From positions 62,001 through 126,000 of the forward strand of contig JAOARD010000052.1 in NCBI GenBank assembly GCA_025210735.1: a DNA stretch of 64,000 bases, given 5' to 3'. How positions within the stretch are numbered: the first letter of the stretch is position 1; each line of letters opens with the position of its first letter. Positions 8,765-56,726 of the stretch are shown here, in pieces. The notes beneath the pieces are model-generated. The model saw only the letters and a program-made list of their open reading frames with translations, searched no databases and had not been told where the DNA came from. This DNA is from Bacteroidales bacterium (GTDB lineage Bacteria; Bacteroidota; Bacteroidia; Bacteroidales; UBA6680). A program made the translations under genes and the position numbers.

Positions 8765-9208
8765 TTAAGCGGATTCTTTACTAAGCCCGGTACTCTCATT
8801 ATCTTTATTCCCCTGATTATCAGCGTTACTTATGCCTAATAAGTGGTTGTTTATCCGTTTTAAATCTTCTTTATCTTGTTTTAATTCAGTTATTTGCTCT
8901 AAAAGCAATTCAATTACTTTATCCTTATCATCGTTAGAACTGTCATTTTGTTTCGTTGTAGTTGAAATTGTACTTTTCATTGTATCTTTTCCCTCAATTT
9001 CTCCTTTACCGGTAATCAACCATAACGCGTTTACGTTTTTATACGTATTTAATATTTTAATTATTAATGATAGTTTAGGGTCAGTTTTCTTTCCTGAATG
9101 ATATTCAGATACAGAAGTGTATGGTATTTCTGTAGCAATTGAGAATTTTTTTTTATTCCCATCACACAGATTGTCAATAAGATATCTAATTCGAGTTTTA
9201 AAATCCAT
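8765..9208 (-). CDS. Prophage repressor (HTH)
   Basis: A 147-residue protein with an N-terminal helix-turn-helix of the cI/Cro type (TEIPYTSVSEYHSGKKTDPK) and a C-terminal Lys/Glu-rich coiled-coil segment (around residues 90-130) suited to oligomerisation. Its position at the left end, divergent from the ner-like and transposase genes, matches Mu c. It should silence early transposition genes by binding the 9209-9329 region. I prefer the ATG at 9206-9208 (MDFKTRI) over the one 15 bp upstream because the latter lies closer to the operator palindrome. Confidence 0.8.
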   Translation of the reverse strand: MDFKTRIRYLIDNLCDGNKKKFSIATEIPYTSVSEYHSGKKTDPKLSLIIKILNTYKNVNALWLITGKGEIEGKDTMKSTISTTTKQNDSSNDDKDKVIELLLEQITELKQDKEDLKRINNHLLGISNADNQGNKDNESTGLSKESA

Positions 9209-16012: not shown

Positions 16013-16036
16013 AAAAGCCCCGTTATTGGGGCTTTT
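16013..16036. terminator. Bidirectional intrinsic terminator
   Basis: Stem AAAAGCCCC/GGGGCTTTT (16013-16021 and 16028-16036) with a six-base loop and T runs on both sides. It ends the rightward middle genes and the leftward packaging operon. The stop codon of the leftward F gene (16023-16025) lies in the loop. Confidence 0.85.
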
Positions 16037-16832
16037 TTCTTTGTAGTAATCTCTCTAGCTGTTTAAGCTGCTTTGTCACTAACTGTTGTGCCCCTGTATC
16101 AATATTATCATACTCCTTAGCAACCCACTTAATATAGTTCTCAAACTTATTGCCTATAAATTCAGCATTCTGTAATCTGCTATTCATAACCTTTCTGTGA
16201 GACTTACTTAAGGTGTGTTTTTTCCAGTCTTTACCTGCCATCTCTGCTGTTAGTGCTACAGCAGTACATCGGCATCCAAAGCCTATAGGAGGGTAATACT
16301 CATAGTCACCAACACGGAAAATCTTACCATGCATCTTGGCGTGATCCTCCCGGGTTCTTGTATCTTTAATTGCAACATATTGCCAGAATGGGAAATCTTC
16401 TGCAACCTCTGCGAGCCTGACCATCTGACCCGCTGCAAAAGCATTGGCGGTATTTGTTCTGTATATAACCGATACACGGTGATTTGCTAAAGGTGATAAC
16501 CCTGCTTTTTCAAACTCAGAATCAACAATTTTTCTGAAAGAGAGATAACCCTCTCCACGTTTTAAACTGCCTTTTAAAGCAGCTTTAATGCGTAATCTGA
16601 GTTTTGAATCTTCAATAACTGCTGAGGTGAATGTCTGAAAGCGGAACCATTGAGTTGCTGATACAGCTCCATCCATTAGCTGTATAATATCTGAGAAGTC
16701 AGAGTTACTGAAGTTATTTGTAGCTGTCTTTACAGAGCTATGTCCTGCCCTGTATGCTTTGTAGTTCTGTAAAAACAGCGTATCTGATAGCTCTTTTATA
16801 AAGCTCTGATTAGGGGCATTTAATCTTTTTTT
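16023..16832 (-). CDS. Mu F-like minor head protein, no start codon visible
   Basis: The frame matches the phage minor head protein F (SPP1 gp7-like) family: YRTNTANAFAAGQMVRL, then WQYVAIKDTRTREDHAKMHGKIF and PPIGFGCRCTAV. The open frame runs from 16832, just inside the end of the portal gene, but the first ATG is at 16676, after family-like residues. No ATG, GTG or TTG lies in frame upstream. The upstream frame begins at an A9 run in the portal gene, so the protein may be made as a portal-F fusion by -1 frameshifting; a one-base indel is the alternative. Confidence 0.75.
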   Translation of the reverse strand, partial: KKRLNAPNQSFIKELSDTLFLQNYKAYRAGHSSVKTATNNFSNSDFSDIIQLMDGAVSATQWFRFQTFTSAVIEDSKLRLRIKAALKGSLKRGEGYLSFRKIVDSEFEKAGLSPLANHRVSVIYRTNTANAFAAGQMVRLAEVAEDFPFWQYVAIKDTRTREDHAKMHGKIFRVGDYEYYPPIGFGCRCTAVALTAEMAGKDWKKHTLSKSHRKVMNSRLQNAEFIGNKFENYIKWVAKEYDNIDTGAQQLVTKQLKQLERLLQRKKPQ

Positions 16833-18055
16833 TTAATGCTTTTCCGGTATCCGTCAAACGACTGCAAAAGAGTATACTCTTTGCTGCTTAGCTCAAAATC
16901 ATCGATAGTACTAAACTGCGTGCTTTCCTGAACTTCAGCAATAGTAAAATGCTCCTCCGGGTAGCCTCTTGATTTAAAGAACTCCGCATTAGGTCTCATA
17001 CCCATTTTAAAGTATATCTGATCTATCTCAGCCTCTTCCTTTGTTACAATACGGGGTTTAACAAGTGTAAACTCTAAGTCTTCAGGTATGGTTATACTGT
17101 TCAGATCAGCTACTATTTCAAACACTTTTAAAATAGCATCTTTTACAAGTAACTGCCCTGTAGAGAGAGCATCACCCTTAATCTGTACGCCTGTTTTACT
17201 ACTGCTATAGCCTCCTTTACCCTGTACCTGCATTGTAAGATCAGTACCACTATAAAGTTTAGTGATCTTTCGTAGCAGCATCTCGTTCACATCTTTGTAT
17301 AGTCCTGTTGATGAGCCCCGGTTCTTATTCTCAATCTTATCAACAGCCATATTCTCAGGAATTGCAGCAACAGAATCGTTACGCAACCTTACAAGCATAT
17401 CCATCAAATCATCAATCTCATCATCCGTCGCATCGGGTGAGTGTTTACCCAGTAGCTTGTCTCTTCCGTCATCTTCGGCAAAGGTTAGCATAAACTCAAA
17501 GTTACCATTAAGACCAACTGCAAGCCAATATGCAACATCTAATAACCCTGTACCGTATGGATTTTCAAGAGTAGGCTCATTCTGTATACATATAAACTTA
17601 TTAGGGTATTCATCCTCTACAATAAGCCCCTGCTTTGCTTTGGTGCTGTATATTCTCAGTTTGCGGTCACTATCAAAACCAAACATCTCAGTAGGTGCAA
17701 GCTCTATTTTTGCAGGTATTGTTTTGCCTTTATACTCCTTGTACTCTGTAATCTCCAACACCGCATAACCGTAGTCACGTGCAGCGAGTACACCACGCAT
17801 AAATTCACGCAGATTAAACTCTGATAGTATCTCACTGAATAACTCGGTACCTTTACCTGTAACCTTTGGTATAAGTTTACATATACCATCTTTATAACCC
17901 TGTACTTCGGGGTATATATCGGGGTGTTTTTCAGTCTTTTTAAACAGATTTATAACAGCCTTTTTACTCTTCAGTACTTCTGAAGGATTAGGCAGTATAT
18001 TTAATGCTTTGGTAAGCTTATGCTTAAGCGTTACCGATTCGTTTATTGTCTTCAT
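16820..18055 (-). CDS. Portal protein (Mu gp29, DUF935)
   Basis: A 411-residue protein of the DUF935 family: GVLAARDYGYAVLEITEY, PNKFICIQNEPTLENPYGTGLLD and DLTMQVQGKGGYSSSKTG are family-typical. It forms the dodecameric portal at the capsid vertex through which DNA is packaged. The gene ends ...SIKKKD with an A9 run immediately before the stop. It lies in the leftward operon gp27-gp28-G-gp29-F and starts four bases after the G gene. Confidence 0.85.
   Translation of the reverse strand: MKTINESVTLKHKLTKALNILPNPSEVLKSKKAVINLFKKTEKHPDIYPEVQGYKDGICKLIPKVTGKGTELFSEILSEFNLREFMRGVLAARDYGYAVLEITEYKEYKGKTIPAKIELAPTEMFGFDSDRKLRIYSTKAKQGLIVEDEYPNKFICIQNEPTLENPYGTGLLDVAYWLAVGLNGNFEFMLTFAEDDGRDKLLGKHSPDATDDEIDDLMDMLVRLRNDSVAAIPENMAVDKIENKNRGSSTGLYKDVNEMLLRKITKLYSGTDLTMQVQGKGGYSSSKTGVQIKGDALSTGQLLVKDAILKVFEIVADLNSITIPEDLEFTLVKPRIVTKEEAEIDQIYFKMGMRPNAEFFKSRGYPEEHFTIAEVQESTQFSTIDDFELSSKEYTLLQSFDGYRKSIKKKD
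16826..16834 (-). promoter_or_regulatory. A9 slippery run at portal/F junction
   Basis: On the minus strand the portal frame reads ATT AAA AAA AAA GAT TAA. The heptamer A AAA AAA is in the correct phase for -1 slippage, after which reading continues AGA TTA AAT GCC into the F frame. The portal stop is six bases downstream. Confidence 0.55.
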
Positions 18056-56551: not shown

Positions 56552-56726
56552 CTAATACTATGTTATCTTGATATTTTTTTAAAACAAAGGCGCAAAGGTA
56601 AACTTTTATTATTAATTGCAGCCTTTTTTTTTATTCTGTATCAATGTTTTTGATATGCGGACATTTTACAAGGCTAAATAGCCTGTATATAACTCAGAAA
56701 GATTATCATCTTTAACAAAATACAGA

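Follow-up and report, generated by a model that had tools for sequence, protein, structure and literature searches.

The portal and F genes of a Mu-like prophage in a Bacteroidales genome of 5.63 Mb very probably form one expression unit, in which slippage at a run of nine adenines (A9) would make both the portal and a 677-aa portal-F fusion. According to the proposed mechanism, the majority of products would end at the TAA one codon past A9 to give the 411-aa portal, and a minority would continue into F after a one-base slip at A9, yielding the fusion. The prophage lies within the window, by which we mean the whole stretch of 64,000 nucleotides that was analyzed, and both genes score well above the curated Pfam cut-offs: 137.6 bits for the portal against Portal_Mu (PF06074; cut-off 23.9) and 72.5 bits for F against Phage_Mu_F (PF04233; cut-off 29.6). 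A small gene on the minus strand separates the portal from the putative terminase ORF upstream (Table 1). Pfam detected no toxin-like C-terminal domain in the window F, which showed Phage_Mu_F alone.

The 3' end of the portal gene reads ATT AAA AAA AAA GAT TAA. The sequence-only reading had recognized that the A run places the heptamer A AAA AAA in phase for -1 slippage, and the sequence confirms this; an in-phase heptamer just before the TAA, with the next gene in -1, is the arrangement of a -1 ribosomal frameshift signal. The F frame opens at 16832 after an in-frame TAA at 16835, and, as had also been claimed, no ATG, GTG or TTG precedes the conserved F residues, the first such codon being the ATG at 16676. 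A change in the length of the A run could also join the frames: one additional A or the loss of two would give a product of 677 or 676 aa, respectively, and the loss of one A or the gain of two would merely lengthen the portal by a few residues. The search for a hairpin downstream of the window A9 found none beyond chance, the 60 nt downstream folding weakly (-8.2 kcal/mol). Just past the portal stop, the ATG at 16819 is present as described earlier, but the C4 run occupies 16816 to 16813 and not 16814 to 16817 as first given. Only two other A9/T9 runs occur in the window, one at 9146-9154, within a minus-strand frame of 161 codons, and one at 56624-56632 outside ORFs of at least 100 codons.

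Table 1 Features of the portal-F region (positions are those of the window)
Feature	Position	Strand	Remarks
Portal gene (Portal_Mu, 411 aa), zero frame	16820..18055	minus	Pfam PF06074, E 8e-40; phrog_113 portal
F gene (Phage_Mu_F/MuF minor head protein), 269 codons, -1 relative to portal	16023..16832	minus	Pfam PF04233, E 6e-20; phrog_220 minor head protein
Large ORF upstream of portal	19882-18488	minus	Taken as terminase from its place and length
A9 slippery run	16826..16834	minus	Contains the in-frame heptamer A AAA AAA at 16832-16826; kept in relatives L003 and L008
Zero-frame portal stop TAA	16820..16822	minus	One codon (GAT) past the heptamer; spacing shared with 41 of 81 clusters
First ATG in F frame (codon 53)	16674..16676	minus	No ATG/GTG/TTG earlier in frame
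F codons upstream of first ATG	16677..16832	minus	Conserved in clade; synonymous changes only in the 97.3% relative
Out-of-frame ATG just past portal stop	16817..16819	minus	ACG in the 97.3% relative
C4 run	16813..16816	minus	Unchanged in the 97.3% relative

We surveyed 133 portal-F junctions of Bacteroidota, collected from viral contigs, genomes of the phylum and annotated phages and grouped into 95 clusters at 75% portal identity. F lay in -1 relative to the portal in 71 clusters, portal and F formed one ORF in 14, and 10 were arranged otherwise; because part of the relatives came from searches with profiles that had been made from loci of this kind, these shares are not population frequencies, although the contrasts within the set stand. 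The junctions are enriched in slippery heptamers beyond chance. Of the 81 unfused clusters, 41 had a homopolymer heptamer separated from the portal stop by exactly one codon, compared with 0.28% per codon elsewhere in portals, and 56 had one within 18 nt of the portal end, compared with 14 of 297 other ORF ends at the same loci. Moreover, the heptamer and a conventional start tend to exclude each other: 57 of the 64 clusters lacking an ATG near the portal stop had a slippery heptamer, versus 2 of the 17 having one. Seven junctions (L034, L086, L070, L073, L114, L120 and L126) had neither a nearby ATG nor a listed heptamer; L070, L086 and L120 carry GGGAAAG or CCCTTTT, and L073 carries A10 slightly further upstream. 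Among the controls from outside the Bacteroidota, no heptamer was seen in Mu, B3, Pmp9, Mushu or a Helicobacter prophage, all of which have plain ATG starts, nor in KS10, whose F lies 306 nt downstream. The sequence-only reading had regarded a portal-F fusion by programmed frameshifting as unusual; the conservation of run and offset strongly supports the fusion itself, but such an arrangement is common in Bacteroidota Mu-like phages.

The junction signals are of two types. The first type comprises T TTT TTC or T TTT TTT in 33 clusters and A AAT TTT or A AAT TTC in 11, usually with a hairpin about 5-6 nt downstream (mean z of 50 nt about -2.4 for both the T6 and the A3T sites), as in TTTTTTC GATTA AGCCCCTC TGACTAC GAGGGGCT. 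The T run has a length of exactly six in 29 of the 33 clusters. In seven distinct sequences sharing one stem length, 8 of 8 hairpin pairs hold and both-sided changes occur at three pairs, where the percentage paired is biased upward since the rows were picked for pairing at 6 or more of the 8 positions. Judged by its sequence, this layout is that of textbook ribosomal -1 frameshifting. The second type, to which the window belongs, has a run of A9 or A10 in all 15 A-type clusters, whereas A7 or A8 accounts for 104 of the 108 other runs of at least seven A in these genes. A hairpin was on average not found at the A-type sites (mean z -0.3).

Downstream RNA structure is the usual stimulator of -1 frameshifting, although it is not always required. 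Whether the slip at the window A9 would be made by the ribosome, by tandem -1 slippage on A AAA AAA, or by RNA polymerase does not change the fusion product. The ribosome is a possible but less probable agent there: the heptamer is in phase, the sister lineages having T TTT TTC or A AAT TTT with a hairpin can only use the ribosome, and the A-type sites of L008, L130, L136 and L144 read A AAA AAG, but the A-type sites are all A9-A10, never A7-A8, and lack the downstream hairpin, the weak folding behind the window A9 being one instance. A run of nine A whose length is conserved among homologs has been described as a mark of purposeful transcriptional slippage (PMC1088944), and when an A or T run of about nine or more with conserved length is taken as the criterion, 15 of 15 A-type clusters have it, as A9 or A10. 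Since the run is always A9-A10, its length is conserved and on average no hairpin follows, RNA polymerase is favored at the window, and we consider it probable that in this lineage the polymerase would mostly stutter, adding one A or omitting two. The ribosome, slipping by -1 on A AAA AAA, would come second, and both may contribute; in the other lineages the same fusion would arise by hairpin-stimulated ribosomal -1 frameshifting.

The phages in which portal and F are one ORF seem to carry the same device in reverse. Fused ORFs do not form one group in the portal tree but turn up at scattered places (12 changes for 13 rows), and a slippery site followed by a -1 stop within 2-26 codons was present in the linker of 13 of the 14 fused clusters, though some chance matches are expected in linkers 150-280 codons long. 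A -1 slip in such a linker meets a stop within 2-26 codons and therefore would yield the portal alone; the retained signal would thus release the portal from the fusion. The sites are T TTT TTC with a hairpin in L012, L016 and the Porphyromonas phage013a (L147), A9-A10 in L149, L105, L019, L099, L021, L027 and L055, and A AAT TTT in L015, L002 and L121, and the type is often the same as in nearby split relatives. Within a single cluster, L081 and L032 differ by T7 versus T8 and by fused versus split state. The genome that contains the window carries a second Mu-like prophage (G000:C35; L002/L119) of this fused type: its single portal-F ORF is 851 aa long and includes A AAT TTT together with a 9-bp hairpin, and a -1 slip there would end after two codons.

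The A run and the frame offset are conserved in relatives of the window locus, the support that the sequence-only reading had looked for. L003, from a MAG of the same genus, is a 97.3% identical copy with 55 substitutions and no indels over 2056 bp, in which A9 and C4 are retained and ACG replaces the out-of-frame ATG at 16819. Upstream of the first ATG, the F frame of this copy has three substitutions (16818, 16794 and 16695), each of them synonymous, and in the whole of F a residue is changed in two codons only. In the distant relative L008, whose portal (over the matching segment) and F are 47% and 44% identical to those of the window, the junction reads CTA AAA AAA AAG AGG TAA, with F in -1 and no start nearby. 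The F residues F11, I12, A26 and G30, all upstream of the first ATG of the window, are invariant among the six aligned clade sequences. Changes in further close pairs were mostly synonymous, with synonymous to nonsynonymous counts of 25:11 in the one long pair and 2:2 in one short pair, which is only mild support because few pairs are usable. An AlphaFold2 model of F made from six sequences was poor (mean pLDDT 56) and was not used, and it therefore lends no structural support to the upstream residues.

These data make it quite improbable that ribosomes reinitiate once they have passed the portal stop and translate F separately, beginning at an internal codon such as the ATG at 16676 or at a non-standard one such as ATA or CTG. 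Mu, B3, Pmp9 and Mushu, like many Bacteroidota phages, do usually have a conventional ATG at this junction, and in the hankyphage p00 an ATG overlaps the portal stop, but a start at 16676 would remove 52 codons, which the clade conserves and in which the close relative differs only synonymously, and no ATG, GTG or TTG precedes it. The ATG at 16819 was rejected as the F start, being out of frame and lost in L003, and the plain ATG start in relatives that had been named as evidence against slippage was encountered neither in L003, which has ACG, nor in L008, which lacks a nearby start. The other explanation offered earlier, loss of one base in the C run after this ATG, conflicts with the unchanged C4, the absence of indels and the ACG in L003. 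Homopolymers are error-prone, but it is hardly credible that the reads or their assembly are wrong here or that F was broken by a recent frameshift mutation, given that independent assemblies agree (the IMG/VR contig comes from a different assembly and is identical), that L003 has the same A9 and C4 without an indel, that both the 97.3% relative and the distant one share the arrangement, and that the changes in F are nearly all synonymous.

Slippage at this junction would also bear on the annotation of known phages. The hankyphage p00 (L146, BK010646.1) carries a signal of the first type, T TTT TTC GGGAAA GCCCCG...CGGGGC, 42 nt before the portal stop with F in -1; since its annotated F begins at the ATG mentioned above, it has two possible routes to F. 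The F start is annotated 99 nt downstream of the portal stop in the Winogradskyella phage Peternella_1 (L148, MT732475.1), whose site is A10, and about 275 nt downstream in the Elizabethkingia phage TCUEAP3 (L152, OK632026.1), whose junction site is AAATTTTTTC. In both, the F frame overlaps the portal in -1, so that their F annotations probably miss the slippage. The slippage reading would explain why F is annotated so far downstream in these cultured phages. None of the annotated phage records viewed bears a slippage mark. In the open-licence literature searched, the likeliest papers included, we found no earlier report of frameshifting or slippage at portal, MuF or DUF935 genes and no earlier description of portal-MuF slippage, which is weak evidence of absence.

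The best-known frameshifts of tailed phages are those of the tail chaperones; a few further cases concern capsid and tail tube genes. The present arrangement is similar to the -1 frameshift of the lambda gpG/gpGT type (Xu, Hendrix, Duda 2004, as cited in PMC6316719) in that a conserved -1 slippage between two morphogenesis genes gives a short and an extended product at a set ratio, which is predicted here, but it differs in the genes concerned, portal and MuF, in its A9-A10 sites lacking a hairpin and in the polarity that is reversed in some phages. UUUUUUC, the heptamer attributed to SPP1 gene 17.5 (PMC6316719), also occurs in many relatives of the window locus. The length-conserved run of nine A and the two products expected resemble the A9 transcriptional slippage of Thermus thermophilus dnaX and of IS elements (PMC1088944), although here phage structural genes are involved and the slippage is predicted from sequence. 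Portal and MuF are joined in one chain also in Microbacterium phages of clusters EA3, EA5, EA8 and EB (PMC7302621), but those fusions are one ORF with no slippage described, whereas here both products would be expected from a gene pair. In SPP1, the portal gp6 binds the MuF-type gp7 and brings a few copies into the procapsid (PMC6316719); uptake of a few MuF copies via the portal is likewise what we propose, but gp6 and gp7 are two separate binding proteins and not a fusion.

We infer a role in head assembly as follows. The F protein would enter the portal vertex and the head interior because it then belongs to some of the portal subunits, and the slippage rate would set the number of F copies in the head, with the ratio of portal to fusion fixed. 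The F proteins of two slippage-type relatives end in toxin-like domains as in MuF polymorphic toxins, an ART domain (PF01129) in L008 and a CdiA_C domain (PF18451) in L020. Taking the family as a whole, we think it rather likely, though with less confidence than for the window itself, that in Mu-like phages of Bacteroidota the portal and MuF belong to a conserved unit with two products, balanced by slippage. Its means (hairpin-stimulated ribosomal slippage, or polymerase slippage at A9-A10) and its polarity would repeatedly have changed with no change in the product pair, and a few portal subunits per vertex would carry the MuF cargo, toxin-bearing in some phages, covalently.

The portal is a ring of 12 subunits. 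If our reading is true, slippage links this ring to an internal head protein, which would explain a fixed and small number of MuF copies per head. One and the same pair of products would then seem to be made by ribosomal slippage in some lineages and by transcriptional slippage in others, the one substituting for the other, which makes the family a natural experiment.
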